64,000 nucleotides of DNA, from assembly GCF_032062135.1 (NCBI RefSeq), contig NC_092859.1, forward strand, positions 48,241,962-48,305,961, written 5' to 3'. A program made the translations under genes and the position numbers. The notes under the pieces were generated by a model, which saw only the letters and a program-made list of their open reading frames with translations, ran no database searches and was not told where the DNA came from. Every line of letters starts with the position of its first letter. Within the stretch, counting starts at the first letter, position 1. The stretch is from Pyxicephalus adspersus (lineage: Eukaryota; Chordata; Amphibia; Anura; Pyxicephalidae). Below, piece by piece: positions 7,720 to 63,990 of this stretch.

Positions 7720-8700
7720 TCATTAATATTATTATTATTAATAATAATAATAATAATAAACAAGATTTTTACAGCGCCAACATATTACGCCGCGCTGTAC
7801 ATTAAATACGAGCTGCAAATGACAGACAGATACAGACAGTGACACAGAAGGAGGAGAGGACCCTGCCCCGAGGAACTTACAATCTAGGAGGTGGGGGAAG
7901 TCTCACACAATAGGAGGGGAGATATGTAGTGATGGGAAGTGGAGAGAGTTTTAAGACAGAGGAAGACGGGTAGGCAAGTTTGAAGAAATCGGTTTTAAGT
8001 GCTCTTTCAAATGAGCAGAAAGTAGGAGCAAGCCGAATAGGATCAGGGAGGATGGATGAGTCTGGCTGCAGCAATCATAATAGATTGTAGAGGAGAGAGT
8101 CGGGTTAGTGGAATACTAGAGAGGAGGATGTTGCAGTAGTCCAGACGAGAGATGATAGTAGCGTGTACAAGGAGTTTGGTGATCTCTGGGGACAAGTAGG
8201 GGCGGATTTTGGAAATATTGCGTAGGTGAAAGTGACAGGACGTGGAAATGTTCTGAATATGGGGGGTAAATGAGAGGGCAGAAATGAGGGTGACGCCAAG
8301 ACAATGTGCCTGAGGGGAGGGACGAATAACAGTGTTGTTAACAGTTAGGAATATGTCAGGGGGAGATTTAGAGTTTGAGGGGGGGGGGGAAGATGAGTTC
8401 TGTTTTATCCAGGTTGAGGTTCAGAAATCTCTCAGACATCCACGATGATATGGCCCATAGGCAGCATGAAACCTTGTCCAGGACTAAGGGACACAGGACA
8501 GGGGTGGACAAATAGATTTGAGTGTCATCAGCATATAGATGGTACTATAAACCAAAGGAGGATCTGAGACTACCAAGTGAGGAGGTGTACAGAGAAAAGA
8601 GAACCGGTCCAAAGACTGACCCTTGGGGAACACCAACAGGTAGGAGAGTGGAAGAGGAGGAATAACCATTGAAACGTCATGAATTTGATTAGATTTGCAC
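7720..8700 (-). mobile_element. L2-type LINE, 5'-truncated, with 3' tail and TAA microsatellite
   Basis: On the minus strand the reverse transcriptase box reads LYADDTQIYL at 8515-8543. Further on comes RLDYCNILLSS (about 8105-8145), then the AAARLIHP block, as in L2/CR1-clade LINE proteins; several frameshifts intervene. The 3' end carries the tail typical of frog L2 copies (ATTGTAAGTTCCTCGGGGCA, then CGTAATATGTTGGCGCTGTA) and ends in a TAA repeat at 7723-7760. Everything 5' of the YADD box is missing, the usual result of incomplete target-primed reverse transcription. Confidence 0.9.
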
Positions 8701-29337: not shown

Positions 29338-29505
29338 GGCCCTGATTTATGGCAAACCTGGGATGGATCTGGTCCAAGATTCAAAGCGTTTGCTAGCAAA
29401 TAGCTAATGATTTTTAAAAATCCATTCCATGTTTTCTGGATTACCCAGCTTCACTTCTAAAAGTGTATTCCCCCCAGCCTTGGAGAGCTTTCATAAATCA
29501 GGCCC
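29338..29505. repeat. Palindromic MITE family A, internally deleted copy
   Basis: Ends GGCCCTGATTTAT and AAATCAGGCCC. The flanks AAT (29335-29337) and AAT (29506-29508) form a three-base target duplication. Much of the left half of the palindrome (the CTCTCC to GATCCAG part) is deleted, while the right half is complete. Confidence 0.9.
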
Positions 29506-29508
29506 AAT

Positions 29509-30477
29509 GTGTAGCCCTTTGGTGATGTCAGGTGTCACATTTGAGACCCTCTAGGTAATCTGCCCATCACTGCATTAGATACATATAACATATTAATTAA
29601 AGAGACATAATTCAGCTAATAATACCAAGAGCTAAATAAATAAAATATTAAAAGTCAAAATACCAAAAAATGGATTTTAAAGCAATATTTATCTTTAATG
29701 CTGCTGCTTCGTCTCAAACTTAAGGTGTACAGAGACTGCACGAGGTTAGGTCCAGATCAAATTCAGGTACATGGACTGTTGCATTCAAAAAATAAATTTA
29801 ATGATGTTATAGCAGGACTAAAGTCTAAATAAGAACTAACAGGCAGGCTTTTCTATGACAAAAGACTGTAAAGTGTCCTCTCTAAAAACTGTCTTAACAG
29901 CCTGTTAAATAAAATACACAGTCCATGCTCAGCTCAATGGACAGTCATGGCATGATTCTTTCCAGGAATTAATATACTCCCCTGCACTTGTGCAGTTGCA
30001 CTTTACCTGCAATCTATAGCAAAAACCTTCTGGAAACCCCACAACAGCAGACATTTCTGGTAGGTTAATTGTGTCTTATTATTTAAATAGTCCAATCTAG
30101 TTTAAGATAAACTACACCTAGCAATATTCAAGTACATTTGTTAAGAAACTACTGATTGACCAATATTGACTGATATTACATTTTTTAGTAACATGTTGTA
30201 TTCTCTCCTGGAAAAGAATGTTCTTTTGCAGACTTAGCTTGCTACTTGTCAAGTCTGCTCTGCAACAAATACAGACTAGCTCACTCAGATAAATCTCTGA
30301 ATGTTACTTAGAATACAGCGGAGAAAAGTGAGTCATACATTTATAAAGACAGAAATTTCTTCTAAAATAAAAGTGGCTGCAAAAATGTACAAAACATAAG
30401 TCAACAGTACAAGCAGCTATTAAATGAGGTTAGCGCAAATAGCAGATACAAGTGACCCCTTGATGTACAAAGACAGT
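29509..30477. other. AT-rich intron with no recognised feature
   Basis: No supportable feature. Confidence 0.5.
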
Positions 30478-30820
30478 GCCCCTGATTCATCAAGCAGAAT
30501 CGGATTATCGCTCGCGCATTCGTATTAGCGATCCGGAATCGTACGCGGTCGCGCTATTCAGCAACGGAAAAAGCTCGCGCACGGAGCCGCGCTTATCCGA
30601 CAGCTTTTTACTGGCGATAGAGATCCTCCTTAATCGCGCAGCTGAAATCTAATCGCCTTAATTGGCAGATTCGCGCTCCCTATTGTGAAGGCTGGAATCC
30701 GGCTGGTAGTGAGGCGAGTGTACGCGCATACTCGAGTCCGGACCGCGGTAGTCCGCGATCGATGGCCGCGCGTACGTTCGCGCTTCCAGCGAGCGCGGAT
30801 TTCATTGATGAATCAGGGGC
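30478..30820. mobile_element. CpG-dense non-autonomous TIR transposon
   Basis: The left end GCCCCTGATTCATCAA is the exact complement of the right end TTGATGAATCAGGGGC. The flanks AGT (30475-30477) and AGT (30821-30823) form a target duplication. The 343-base body contains about 45 CpG dinucleotides by my count, with many CGCG, while the surroundings have almost none. There is no transposase; overlapping frames on both strands are composition artefacts. Intact ends and undecayed CpGs suggest recent insertion. Three-base duplications suggest the PIF/Harbinger superfamily (inference). Confidence 0.88.
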
Positions 30821-31390
30821 AGTATGTCCATTACTGGTTTTGTAAAGCCAATCTTCATAGAGAAGGAACATGGGAGTGCATAGTACAAAAGATGAATGAA
30901 CATATGAAATATTGTACAGAATTTCTCATTTGAAGTATGGAATGTATAAAACGCAGAGCGTGTGTTCTGTGTTGGCTTCCCTGCCATGTGAGACCCTGAC
31001 CCACCTCGCAGCACAGCCAGATTTATATTTCCTATTGTCTTCAAACACATATTGTCACTACCCTGGCTGAAATGCTTCAAGAGCTTATCCTCCATCTCTT
31101 GAAATGTGGCATCATGAGTCCTAGCATTATAAACCTAACTAATATTGTTATAGACCAATGAGTTCAGTATATGTTGCTCACTTCTGTAACTCCTGAGCAA
31201 GCAGTCTATTAGAACTGTAAAATGCTTTAAAAGTATTTGGTCACTCCGATATATTATACAGTACTTTAATAATTACCTTGTTTAGTTACTACGTGTTTTA
31301 TGAGATCTACATGATCAGTTTAGATATTGCCACAGAGGCCTGAACCAATGACTGTCAAAATATCATGGCAATATCATATATATATATATA

Positions 31391-31465: not shown

Positions 31466-31584
31466 GCCTGCTGTGTTCACTACAAACCAGCCATGAGTTG
31501 GATTTGACAGTGTCTCTTTTGGTTAACAGTTGTTAGTGACCTACCACCCACCATTCACAAAGCGTTTGATAAGGAAAACACTTC

Positions 31585-31763
31585 ACATTAGTGAAGTTGG
31601 GAGAACCAGAAAATCTGGAATTCAATTCTTAAAAGTCAATTTTCTATTTGTTAGCAAATATTTTCCAGATCCATTCCAGGTTGCTGGATCACCCAGCTTC
31701 CCTGATGAAAGTGTATTCTCTCCAGCCTAATAAAGCTCCAGGGAGCCTTAATAAATCAGGTGC
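31585..31763. repeat. Palindromic MITE family A, decayed copy
   Basis: AGTGAAGTTGGGAGAACCAG on the left and CCAGGTTGCTGGATCACCCA on the right match family A; the right end is ATAAATCAGGTGC. The left terminus is lost. Confidence 0.8.
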
Positions 31764-39560: not shown

Positions 39561-40562
39561 GAAAAACCCAACTGTATTGGAAATTATAAACCATTCATGA
39601 ATCAGGGACGCCTGAGAATAATCCATGTATGCTTGTCCTGCACTTTTATTTGGAAAGTGGTTTTCCCAAACAAGCTGCTCTTGTGAGTGAAGGACCACAC
39701 ATGTACTTCATGTTATTAACAATAAAGTTAATTTACCTAAGCAATTGAACAAGAGCACTACAGTACACTGCATAGAATGTGCACACACAGAGATCAGTAT
39801 TTTCGAACCTAGCTAAATATACATTTATACAGTTTACAGGGTGCTGTCCTTGTTTGTCGTGCTTGCAGAATATCCATACTTTGGTGATTTCTTAACAAGT
39901 ACAGTGCAATGAATAATGTGTGTGCTAACAAGTAAAAAACAAGTAAAGTAACGTAACCATTTTGCTAAAATAAATAAAATGAACACATGCAAAACAGCAG
40001 AACTAAACAACCTATACTCCATGCCATCATAACACAAAATAAAGCATATAAATATGCATTTAACAACGAAGTCTCCATTCCAAGTACGTTCCAAGTATGT
40101 AGTATGGTGGCTGGTGTGCAAACATCTGCATATGTGCACTAAAATACCACATTTAAACTTAAAGCAGAGGGAGAAATAAAAAAAAAGTTATCTCTGACAT
40201 TGTTTAAAAAAAATAACATTGAAAAGCATATCAATCTGGGTCGGTATCCTACCAGGTACCTCAGGGGTTTTGATGTAGATAGAACTGATACCTTGTATTG
40301 TGTTTTTGGTCTTGTCACTATTTTGTTAAGTGTGAAGTATAGTTACTCTCTGTCAAGTATCCTTTTCATAGAAAAGCCCACATAAGGCATGTTTAATGAT
40401 ACAGTGATTGTGTTGTTAAATGGTTTTGTTGCCGAAAAACTTTAATAAAAATACTGAAATACAAAAAAAAAATATTTTTTTTCCTATGAAACCTATAGAC
40501 CAAAATATGTAAAATTTGGAATCGAGAAAAAAATGAAAAATGCTTATCTGGTTACAATATAA
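39561..40562. other. AT-rich intron with no recognised feature
   Basis: Nothing supportable. Confidence 0.5.
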
Positions 40563-40757
40563 GTTTTCTAGGGAAGACTAGAGAAGATAAAATATCATCG
40601 GAGAACTCGGACGATCCAGCAAACATGGAATGGATTTCTGGATTGCTATTGGTTGGCAAAAGGTTTTATTCCATGACCAGATTACAGGTTTTTTGAATTA
40701 CCTAGGTTCCCCCATGATAGTCTATCTTCTTCTTGGAGAGCTGTAATAAATTAGGCC
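40563..40757. repeat. Palindromic MITE family A, decayed copy
   Basis: GATCCAGCAAACATGGAATG on the left, TCCCCCATGATAGTCTATCT on the right, right end TAATAAATTAGGCC. It resembles the copy at 61-255 more than the others, suggesting a subfamily. Confidence 0.78.
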
Positions 40758-41319
40758 ACCCTTTTCTCAACTAGGGTTCCTCTAGAGGTGACAAGGGGTT
40801 CCATGAGCAATGAGCAGTTTGTGAATCTCAGATCAGTTACCACTGATTCCAAGGGTGGTAGCCTTCCCAATGCCCAGTAATGTAAGAGGCATTCTTTCTA
40901 CTGATCACCACACTAATGTAAGTATGTAAATATGTATATGTAAAATAACACTAAAAATATGTTTCAGGTAAAAAGAAGGGCAGTAACAAAAGTAAACAAC
41001 AAGGTAAATAATAAGGTTTCTTTAAGTGATGTCATCTCCATAGTATCACATATTTGACTTACATGTGAATGAAATATACACTGTTCTAAAAACATTCAGT
41101 TATCTAGCAGATTTAATAAATGATCAATTGTAATTAGTAGAAATGAGACAAAAATGTGATCAATAAATCTAAAAATGTGGAATAGGCTCCCTCAGGAAGA
41201 AGTTTTAGCAACTACTATAAATTGCTTTAAGAAAAATCTGGATGTTTTTCTAGAAGCACAGAATATAACTGGGCATCCGACTGCCTAATGGAATCAGAAA
41301 TTAAAATTAAATTAAAATT
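40758..41319. other. Intron with possible dispersed-repeat fragments
   Basis: 40770-40920 (CTCAACTAGGGTTCCTCTAG onward) and 41160-41290 (GGAATAGGCTCCCTCAGGAA, then CTGGATGTTTTTCTAGAAGC) resemble frog repeats I recall but cannot name. Confidence 0.35.
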
Positions 41320-41813: not shown

Positions 41814-42004
41814 GGGCCTGATTAATTAAAGCTCTGCAAGACTGGAGAAGACACACTTTCATCGGTGAACCTGGGTGATCCAGCAAACATGGAACGGATC
41901 TGGTCCAGGATTAAAAACATTTGCTGATAAATGTTAAGCATTTAAAATCACTTTTAAGAAAATCATTCCAGGTTTGCTGAATCACCATGTTCATCAATAA
42001 AGCT
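41814..42004. repeat. Palindromic MITE family A copy
   Basis: Left end GGGCCTGATTAATTAAAGC preceded by CACAAT. GATCCAGCAAACATGGAACG and its complement-like AGGTTTGCTGAATCACC are present. The right terminus is truncated in GCTTTTC. Confidence 0.85.
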
Positions 42005-43011
42005 TTTCAACTTAAATATTGTGATCATCAAGATCTAATATGCGATTTCAGTGTAATTTAAATTTCATTTAGATGTATGTGTATAATAGCCAATGTTTTT
42101 GCACTCACATTTTTTGAAACACAAATGTACAGTCTAGAGTTTAGATTAACGGGACCCATATATTATTGCTCAGTAGTATTAACGTTGTAATATAGTCTTG
42201 GCCAATGATAAAATAGCAAAAATGTAAATACTTGTTGAACTGAACATCATATTTTTTTTCTGTTGACATCATCTAATCTCTGTCACAAAGCCTAATAAAC
42301 ACTGTATAAGTTAGCATCTCACACAATACCACACTTTATAATTTACTACATCACACTTTCTTAGGTGTGTTGACAGTTTTATGCTTACCACCCAATAACT
42401 CATATTAGCTAAAGCTTTAATTGTAACTCAAATGTAACTTACTTGTAAGTTAAATCTAGGGCCATCTGCATTAATAAGTTACTCTAAACACATTTTACTT
42501 AATCACATTCAAAACACAAAACAAACCAACTAGCATCATTTGTTTGAAAATTATCATAAATCAATGAATTATATTCCTAGCCATATGTAATTTATAAAAC
42601 AGTAAGCTGATTGTTTCAAGGTGTTAGAGTTTATGCCTAAATAACTGGATGATACAAGAATTTCATTATTTTATTCAAAACATAATATTAAGAATTTGAA
42701 CCTTTCTGAACATATGGAAACTACATTTTAATGTGTATCTTTAATATAAAATCTGTAATATCTATATATTTGTTTAATCACGGAACAATTAAATGTTTTC
42801 AAACTACTTTTCTCTGTCTAAACATATGGCCGTGTAGTAGAGGATCAAGTAGTCTGGGCTCAGGAGGTGGTTGTAATTCCCAGGATAACATTTGCTGAAT
42901 ATGTATAATTAAGCAAGTATGTATACAATAATGACTATTACAGAAAGGTAGAAAAAAAGTGGAAACCAAACCAAGGATGCTTGGGACTTTTAGGGCATTT
43001 TAAATAAATAG
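42005..43011. other. AT-rich intron with no recognised feature
   Basis: Nothing supportable. Confidence 0.5.
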
Positions 43012-44518: not shown

Positions 44519-44818
44519 TGAAACTGCGGCTATTATTATGTAGGCAAGATGAAAAGACAATTTAATAGACGCACTTATGAACATGTATATTCAGTGGTGA
44601 GTGATAAAATCTTGACTCCTCTGAGCCATCACATGGGGGTAAATCATAATTTTGATGTCAAGAGAATGAGATTTATTGCCTTGAAATGTCTCTTTCCTGA
44701 TCCCAGAGGGGGTGATTTTGACAGAGTTCTGCTTCAGAGAGAACCAAAATATATTTTTAAATTGAATGTGACGCAACATTCAGGTCTAAACGAAATGAAA
44801 AGCTATAAATGTTTTTAA
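44519..44818 (+). pseudogene. Penelope GIY-YIG endonuclease domain
   Basis: After a TGA, the open frame reads NCGYYYVGKMKRQFNRR, then YEHVYSV, which contains the tyrosine-rich YVGK strand, the catalytic arginine region and the EH motif of GIY-YIG nucleases as found in Penelope-like elements. It ends with FKLNVTQHSGLNE and a KCF end, the usual C-terminus. The methionine at 44549 is internal to the domain, not a real start. The domain is well preserved for this window. It would nick DNA for target-primed reverse transcription. Confidence 0.85.
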
Positions 44819-45992: not shown

Positions 45993-46215
45993 GGACCTGA
46001 TTTAAGAAAGCTCTCTAAGGCTGGAGAGAATACACTTGCATCAGTGAAGTTGGGTGATCCAGCAAACCTGGAATGGATCTGGTCCAGTATTCAAAACATA
46101 TGCTAACAAATAGCAAAATATTTTTAAAAATCCATTCCATGTTTTCTGGATCACACAGCTTCACTTCTGAAAGTGTATTCTCTCCAGCCTTGGAGAGCTT
46201 TAATAAATCAGGCCC
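45993..46215. repeat. Palindromic MITE family A, full-length copy
   Basis: Ends GGACCTGATTT and AAATCAGGCCC, flanked on both sides by TAT (45990-45992 and 46216-46218). The two halves are near-complementary (GGCTGGAGAGAATACACTT against AAGTGTATTCTCTCCAGCC). At 223 bases this is the best copy in the window. Confidence 0.93.
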
Positions 46216-47132: not shown

Positions 47133-47472
47133 GCTTTTACACATAAAAATCCAATGTATTGCATTCAATACAGTTATTTTGTATTGAATACAATACAAAT
47201 GGATTTTGAATTTCCCACCCCGCCCGGCCAGGAAGTACACACGCACCGACGTCATCAGGAACTCCCCCGGTGACTCATCGAATGCAGAAGCAGGAAGAAA
47301 AAAGAAGACTGAGATTGTGGCCCTGGACAGCGCAGGACCCCGGCGGATCAGGTAAGCGCTCTATTTACTAACCTTCCCTAGTTGTTCCAACCCCAAGTGT
47401 GACTCGGGGTTACCACTTGTGGCAACTTTTTTCTACCCCAAGTCACACTCGGGGTTACCGCTAGGGAGGTTA
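47133..47472 (+). repeat. Dispersed repeat ending in GGGGTTACCGCTAGGGAGGTT, copy 1
   Basis: Begins near ATTGAATACAATACAAATGG, passes through a CpG-rich core (CACGCACCGACGTCATCAGG, AACTCCCCCGG) and ends with two CCCCAAGT...ACTCGGGGTTACC inverted motifs. The copy at 58405-58760 is homologous in the opposite orientation. Confidence 0.8.
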
Positions 47473-48611: not shown

Positions 48612-48831
48612 GGACCTGATTTATAAAAGCTCTCCACGGCTGGTGAAGATACACTTTTATCAGTGAAGTTGGGAGATCCAGCAAACCTGGAATGGATCTG
48701 GTTTAGGATTCAAAACATTTGCATAACAAACATAGCAAATGGCAAATTACTTGGAAGAAATCCATTCCAGGTGTGCTGGATCACCCAGCTTCACTGAAGA
48801 AAGTGTATCCTCTCCATCCTTGGAGAGCTTA
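48612..48831. repeat. Palindromic MITE family A copy
   Basis: Left end GGACCTGATTTATAAAAGC preceded by CAAT. Both palindrome halves are present. The right end breaks off in TTGGAGAGCTTAAAATAAAT, where a microsatellite begins. Confidence 0.9.
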
Positions 48832-48913
48832 AAATAAATAATAAATAATAAAAATAAATAATAATAAATAAATAATAAAAATAAATAATTAAAATAAATA
48901 ATAATAAATAAAT
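48832..48913. repeat. (AATAAAT)n microsatellite grown from the MITE end
   Basis: Variable AATAAATAAT units replace the last bases expected for the MITE (TTTAATAAATCAGG), and the tract ends at AAATCACACCCTGATGTC, a possible trace of the original MITE end. Confidence 0.85.
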
Positions 48914-54996: not shown

Positions 54997-55245
54997 TAGG
55001 TACAAACGTGCAATTGTTGAATCTGTGTACAGCGGTCATCATCTGGACGACCCTCCTGGCAGATCCACGGATGATGGATGATGAACGATCGCAATGAAAG
55101 TGAAGGGGGGAGAGTGCAGCGGGGTGCCGCTCCGCCGTTCTCCCCTGTCCCCTCATAGAGCAGAACAGTGCTGCAGTCATTTGTCATTGGAAAGGATCGT
55201 GAAAGATCATTTCCAACAACAATTATTGCACATGTGTACATAGCC
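54997..55245. repeat. MITE with CTAGGTACAAACGTGCAAT ends
   Basis: Left CTAGGTACAAACGTGCAATT and, reverse-complemented, right CTATGTACACATGTGCAATA form an imperfect TIR of over 20 bases. The body includes CpG-rich GGGGTGCCGCTCCGCCG. No coding capacity. It lies about 230 bases from the gabrb acceptor. Confidence 0.8.
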
Positions 55246-59589: not shown

Positions 59590-59813
59590 GGTCCTGATTT
59601 ATTAAAGCTCTCAAAGACTGGAGAGGATACACTTTCATCAGTGTACCTGGGTGACACAGTGAACCGGGAATGGATCTGGTCCAGGACTGAAAACATTTCA
59701 TAACAAATAGCAAATGACTTTGAAGAAATCCATTCCTGGTTTTCTGGATCACCCAGTTCCACCAAATAAAGTGTTTCCTCTTAAGTTCTAGAGAGCTTTA
59801 AAAAATCAGGGCC
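59590..59813. repeat. Palindromic MITE family A copy
   Basis: Ends GGTCCTGATTTATTAAAGC and AAAAAATCAGGGCC; both halves present, about 224 bases. No target duplication is evident. Confidence 0.9.
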
Positions 59814-63557: not shown

Positions 63558-63990
63558 AAGAGGAACTAAACTCAAAATCCCCCAAAACACAAAAAAATAC
63601 ACTTACCTTCAATCCTGCAGCGCAGTTGATCAGTACGGAGGTATATTCCATTAGGTCCCACGTCGTCCCAGCATCTGTCTTTGGGCCAGCCCTCCGGGCG
63701 CTGCCATCTTCTCTTCTTCCTAAGTCACCCGACTCGGCGCGTGATCGAGTGACGTAGGTTGGCAAAAAAGTGCCGATCTCACTGCGCATGTGTGAGATCG
63801 GCAAATTGTTCTCTTCTAAGGAAAAGGCTCCTTCTGCGCATGCCCAAGATGCCCAAGGTATGCGCAGAAGGAGCACACAAGAGCCTCTCGGGATGCATGA
63901 CGTAGGTATCTCGGGAGACTTTGCGTCCTATTCATTCTCGATCACCTAGGCAATTAGGAATTAGGGGGCAGTGCTGCCCCCTTTTTTTTA
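63558..63990. repeat. GC-rich frog repeat with two perfect hairpins
   Basis: Begins AAAGAGGAACTAAACTCAAA (compare 19579) and continues with ACACTTACCTTCAATCC. It then becomes CpG-rich with two exact inverted repeats: GCCGATCTCAC with its complement (63772-63802) and CTCCTTCTGCGCAT with its complement (63828-63873). It ends AGGGGGCAGTGCTGCCCCC. The 123-codon minus frame is probably chance. Confidence 0.75.

Follow-up and report, generated by a model that had tools for sequence, protein, structure and literature searches.

The CpG-dense element at positions 30478-30820 of the stretch of Pyxicephalus adspersus DNA analysed here (64,000 nucleotides in all, referred to below as the window) is probably a recently inserted MITE of the ANT type, from a high-copy, non-autonomous family that moves by cut-and-paste. 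The insertion itself is unremarkable; what deserves pursuit is the apparent retention of CpG across the source lineages of its family within a CpG-depleted genome.

Anatomy of the element and its copies in the genome

The element is 343 bp long, with a GC content of 0.563, and contains exactly 45 CpG and 14 CGCG, as the initial annotation had estimated (about 45 CpGs in 343 bases, many as CGCG). Its CpG observed/expected ratio (o/e) is 1.66 versus 0.25 across the remaining window (7.9 CpG per kb), and the runner-up 343-bp stretch for CpG density, at 63621, holds 22 CpG. The left terminal inverted repeat, GCCCCTGATTCATCAA (30478-30493, + strand; 0 CpG), pairs with the right one (30805-30820, − strand), its reverse complement, at 16 of 16 bases, and AGT target-site duplications lie immediately outside at 30475-30477 and 30821-30823; the perfect 16-base ends and AGT duplications that had been annotated are thus exact, and the inverted-repeat length reads 17 bp if the neighbouring T/A of the duplications is included. 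The predicted single-copy empty target at this locus is AGACAGTATGTCC. The 45 CpG of the core (30494-30804, + strand) were reached in 0 of 1000 mononucleotide shuffles of that core (mean 25.3), and GpC is likewise elevated there. Both TG (o/e 0.58) and CA (o/e 0.70) are under-represented in the element, so that CpG decay leaves no visible trace in it.

A Pfam search restricted to the longest frame through the element returned no domain, on which ground a coding insert was rejected, and an Rfam scan of the window at the gathering score returned no family. A plasmid or E. coli insert was likewise rejected, sequence comparison having given no match. The single-strand fold of the element is stronger than that of 100 shuffles (z −5.25); self-complementarity outside the ends, however, was matched by 13 of 300 shuffles, and for this reason a special hairpin was dropped and no structural claim is made for the element.

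The assembly searched comprises 1.44 Gb in 8082 contigs. A copy count proposed in the initial annotation, which had named an absence of other copies as grounds for dropping its reading, gave 2,435 exact occurrences of the first 19 bases of the element against 0 for the reversed-pattern control. A search with the whole element gave at least 41 matches (best 40 of 4018 first-look candidates scored); among those listed, 40 long matches had identities of 85-100%, and near-full-length relatives reached 96% identity over the query. The 39 other long matches, retrieved with about 500 bp of flank, each contain 36-44 CpG. Perfect 16-bp end pairs were present in 30 of the 40 copies, the 12-base flanks differed between copies, and the interior CpG o/e was 1.58, with flanks at 0.19 in the first 100 bp and 0.23-0.35 beyond. 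Some copies carry internal core deletions or other sequence replacing the core, and the shorter ones look like internal-deletion derivatives. The marks by which a MITE is recognised were therefore found together: short length, inverted ends, target duplications and many copies, with no transposase domain found. That the element is instead a host CpG island or a regulatory element, conserved and flanked by inverted repeats through chance, is extremely improbable: CpG density by itself would fit such an origin, whereas the 2,435 exact end copies, the duplications at most copies examined and the differing 12-base flanks oppose it, and a conserved host CpG island was rejected for the family given its thousands of copies.

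The exact-19-mer and similarity-ranked samples are both biased toward young copies. For the map-order sample, we took 40 consecutive exact-end places on one contig (C1; rows 2-41 among the 100 listed, row 1 being left out as it sits at the contig end), chosen without regard to similarity or CpG. The 3′ end was present within about 430 bp in 21 of these, was not found within reach in 9, and 10 ran into N. The 21 delimited copies are 56-362 bp long with CpG o/e values of 1.0-1.97, the 56-bp copy being doubtful owing to three end mismatches. In the copies ending in N (L075, L077, L079, L081, L084, L091, L094, L099, L105 and L109, together with L067), the N begins inside the element or just past its start, and given these copies the element may break assembly. 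In one of the map-order copies, L095, shared ends and CpG-rich subterminal pieces enclose an unrelated, AT-rich core, which looks as if cores are exchanged between elements. A 200-kb sample drawn from C1-C3 at regular intervals (CpG o/e 0.31; N over about 9.6 kb) yielded one partial copy, broken off by N. Outside this genome, the element-end strings gave no match where they were looked for in the literature, and pattern searches of viral contigs gave 0 matches; a pattern search of genome contigs gave six prokaryote matches, in which similarity was confined to the end region besides chance-level pieces.

Target site and transposon class

Identical 3-bp duplications flank 34 of 38 similarity-ranked copies (L029 and L035 were excluded because their 3′ ends failed to align to the query); 31 of the 38 are ANT (ATT 13, AAT 11, ACT 4, AGT 3) and none is TWA. 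The surrounding target is palindromic, AGAC-ANT-GTCT, each flanking base being the commonest at its position across the 38 copies. Among the 21 delimited map-order copies, 15 duplications were identical and 10 were ANT. Identical ANT was thus absent in 7 of the 38 similarity-ranked duplications and ANT in 11 of the 21 map-order ones, the minority identical duplications being AGA or TTT in the former and TAT, TTT, ATG or AGG in the latter.

In the sections of Han et al. (2015; PMC4482050) used here, an ANT duplication is the mark of the Pangu group of the PHIS (Harbinger-like) superfamily, the classical PIF/Harbinger duplication being TWA. The element resembles Pangu as described in those sections in its 3-bp ANT duplication, in inverted ends that fall within the 11-40 bp range and in what would be cut-and-paste movement with a 3-bp stagger. 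It differs in that its ends start with GC, whereas Pangu ends usually start with AG or GG (the 'usually' of PMC4482050 making this not strictly defining), and in that it is known here without a transposase of its own; furthermore, the Pangu hosts given in the same sections are 15 genomes, none of them vertebrate, whereas the present host is an amphibian. A narrow look at the literature found no later report of Pangu in a vertebrate, and the portions of PMC9179366 and PMC10794172 that bear on the matter do not settle what moves the element. With Tourist-like/PIF-Harbinger MITEs the element shares its short length, the lack of any coding domain found, inverted ends, a 3-bp duplication, very high copy number and shorter derivatives; unlike them, it duplicates ANT, with TWA at 0 of 38, and has a CpG o/e of 1.6.

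The mechanism suggested by these features is that a DDE transposase of the PHIS superfamily, for which the Pangu group is the best fit, would act in trans on the GCCCCTGATTCATCAA ends. We consider it unlikely that the element belongs elsewhere, whether to classical TWA PIF/Harbinger or to CMC or Zator with 3-bp duplications: the GC rather than AG/GG starts, the AGA, TTT, TAT, ATG and AGG among identical duplications and the fact that no transposase has been tied to the element would suit such an assignment, whereas the complete lack of TWA, the 31 ANT duplications and the symmetric AGAC..GTCT surround argue against it.

A profile search of the genome with PF13359 (DDE_Tnp_4) gave at least 165 matches (150 of 925 candidates scored); among the matches listed, none of the three places on C1 below 76.3 Mb lay within 20 kb of a listed element end. 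At C1:34942908 (L106/L114, C1:34942890-34944320), AGT precedes 36 bp similar to the element, the 16-bp end included, and, about 0.96 kb further downstream, a frame has a sub-threshold zf-AD match (19 bits versus a cut-off of 28); this frame may resemble a widespread transposon-associated protein. The 3′ end was not found within 1431 bp either there or at C1:37883238, and a homologue search for the second piece of the former found none. C1:34942908 is possibly a longer relative; it may also represent a truncated copy inside unrelated DNA.

Change at CpG sites within the family

In the 40-copy alignment, the window copy has changed at 0 of 86 consensus CpG positions and at 9 of 256 other positions; its closest copy differs by 0.9% (substitutions), and it carries one private change in the 49-copy alignment, from which L095 was left out. 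These observations support a recent insertion of the window copy and bear out the very recent arrival that the initial annotation had offered as one explanation of the CpG density. Youth, together with descent from a CpG-rich source, would account for the intact CpGs of the window copy.

The other explanation offered there, escape from methylation-driven decay, received a mixed answer. Methylated CpGs in vertebrates mutate with a roughly tenfold excess. Changes seen in one copy only (private changes) give the closest approximation to post-insertion mutation, and for C>T/G>A these were 1.77 times as frequent at CpG as at other G/C sites in 38 copies, 1.39 times in all 49 copies (p=0.26) and, among the 41 that carry few private changes, 2.35 times (p=0.02). 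Across the 5′-most 120 bp in the 40 map-order copies, the counts were 13 of 1152 at CpG versus 1 of 773 at other G/C, a ratio of 8.7 (p=0.012). On terminal branches, the corresponding ratios were 2.2 in 38 copies (109/3280 versus 86/3939, p=0.003), 2.3 in 49 (140/4117 versus 99/4951, p=4e-5) and 1.1 in 11 map-order copies (38/830 versus 50/1015, p=0.74). All of these ratios but the 8.7 fall below the roughly tenfold excess, so that the evidence points in both directions, and since the private and terminal ratios disagree, escape from methylation is neither established nor excluded. Pairs of other repeats, drawn from the window and the 200-kb sample, differed by 0-35% at CpG sites and by 9.5-17% at other sites, indicating that their CpGs do decay in this genome, unevenly.

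Along the inferred source lineages, changes at CpG were three to four times rarer than changes at other G/C sites. On internal branches, the 38 similarity-ranked copies gave 8 changes over 3148 CpG site-branches versus 37 over 3875 at other G/C (p=2e-4), the 11 complete map-order copies 9/696 versus 40/934 (p=4e-4) and all 49 copies 19/4088 versus 74/5061 (p=1.5e-6). The terminal-branch counts given above show no such conservation of CpG. Having an unrelated core, L095 is left out of the 11- and 49-copy trees; including it gives 12/734 versus 49/1011 (map-order) and 19/4120 versus 90/5183 (combined). These branch counts come from parsimony reconstruction, which assigns repeated changes at CpG to terminal branches, a bias in the direction of the internal-branch result, and they treat site-by-branch cells as independent though they are not. 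A simpler tally of variants present in at least five copies pointed in the same direction but was not significant, with 7 over 86 CpG columns versus 17 over 106 other G/C columns (p=0.19; p=0.06 for CpG versus all other columns). Within the 5′ part of the map-order copies, A/T positions were as little variable as CpG ones (4.8% and 5.2%, versus 11.4% at other G/C). Retention of CpG along source lineages is accordingly put forward as a lead, not a result.

The account of this pattern that we favour is that copies which have lost CpGs rarely act as sources, so that the family stays CpG-rich through sources with intact CpGs; such sources would be unmethylated in the germ line, or else the CpG-rich sequence would itself be needed. 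We advance this tentatively, and it is with similar reserve that we suggest, as a whole, an ANT-type PHIS MITE in a vertebrate whose CpGs (o/e about 1.6, above random) are actively kept and whose patches decay after landing. About as likely, and likewise short of probable, is the proposal that a CpG-rich founder amplified very recently, with little time for decay and nothing preserving the CpGs. The window copy, which has kept every consensus CpG and gained a single private change, is what such a burst would leave, and the 8.7 ratio of the map-order 5′ segment (120 bp) is what ordinary decay following insertion would produce. Against it, copies lie up to about 11% from the consensus at non-CpG positions while CpG positions differ less (4.0% versus 6.3% at others, 40 copies pooled), which means that the whole family is not so young, and the private ratio in complete copies is just 1.4-2.35. 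That same small private excess, together with the terminal-branch ratio of 1.1 in the 11 map-order copies and the CpG o/e of 1.0-1.97 in 21 delimited copies from a sample not selected for CpG, would also agree with an element that escapes germ-line methylation altogether as a true unmethylated island, its CpGs never hypermutable. We think this improbable, given that a private excess of CpG transitions does exist, reaching 8.7 in one set, and that CpG poverty in the flanks begins directly at the border of the element (o/e 0.19 over the nearest 100 bp), so that no protection spreads outward.

Should source CpGs indeed be conserved while landed ones decay, the family would constitute a natural experiment on a transposon evading or exploiting DNA methylation, offering similar CpG-dense inserts by the thousand, differing in age and in their individual flanks, in a CpG-poor genome, and the ANT-duplicating PHIS group would be extended to a vertebrate. 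Active keeping of the CpGs would mean that thousands of small, ready-made CpG-dense patches are spread through a CpG-depleted genome; if the conservation at source is false, what is left is an ordinary young MITE burst.

Gene context and other repeats

The initial annotation had placed the element in a CpG-poor intron of a neuronal gene. The surroundings are CpG-poor (o/e 0.25), as it held, but limited searches recognised no exon or gene, which leaves the intron and its neuronal gene unsupported. The orphan CpG island and the regulatory insertion that it had suggested likewise found no support here. Four exon candidates and nine long window frames were searched against PDB and Pfam, with no exon recognised; the best candidate, 47232-47351, is flanked by genome-recurrent stretches and matched nothing in PDB or Pfam. 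Two window frames, 8043-8420 (−) and 44522-44818 (+), gave no significant match in a Pfam search and presumably resemble LINE-like and Penelope-like retroelement remnants.

Eight copies of another MITE, which is older, AT-rich, near-palindromic and about 224 bp long with ends GGNCCTGATTNATNAA, lie in the window at 30-255, 29338-29505, 31536-31763, 40536-40758, 41814-42010, 45993-46215, 48612-48835 and 59590-59813 (some bounds approximate). These copies lie 7-26% from their consensus with 0-3 CpG each, and the duplications of three paired copies are AAT/AAT, TAT/TAT and a mismatched CTT/ACC. The resident MITE and the CpG element are alike in the CCTGATTNATNAA end motif and in an A-N-T/G-T target preference; they are unlike in that the resident core is unrelated and CpG-poor. 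The resident flanks favour A-N-T-G-T, and under a target profile built from the 11 resident ends the CpG element's empty site ranks, with both flanks summed, within the top 0.25% of positions across the window and, among ANT sites, within the top 2.4% (better flank: top 1.5% and 10%, respectively). A shared or related transposase for the two is plausible.

A second set of CpG-rich repeats, with GCGTACACACG-type ends, was found at L064:6406-6730, L065:5720-5975, L063:3241-3564 and about 55024-55239 of the window. Three of them have a CpG o/e of 1.34-1.89 in their densest 300 bp, and pairs differ by 0-35% at CpG versus 9.5-14% at other sites; repeats of this CpG-rich, MITE-like kind may be characteristic of the P. 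adspersus genome. The stretch second in CpG density in the window, at 63600-63960, is a GCGCATG-containing sequence, diverged pieces of which also occur in one sampled stretch (L056).
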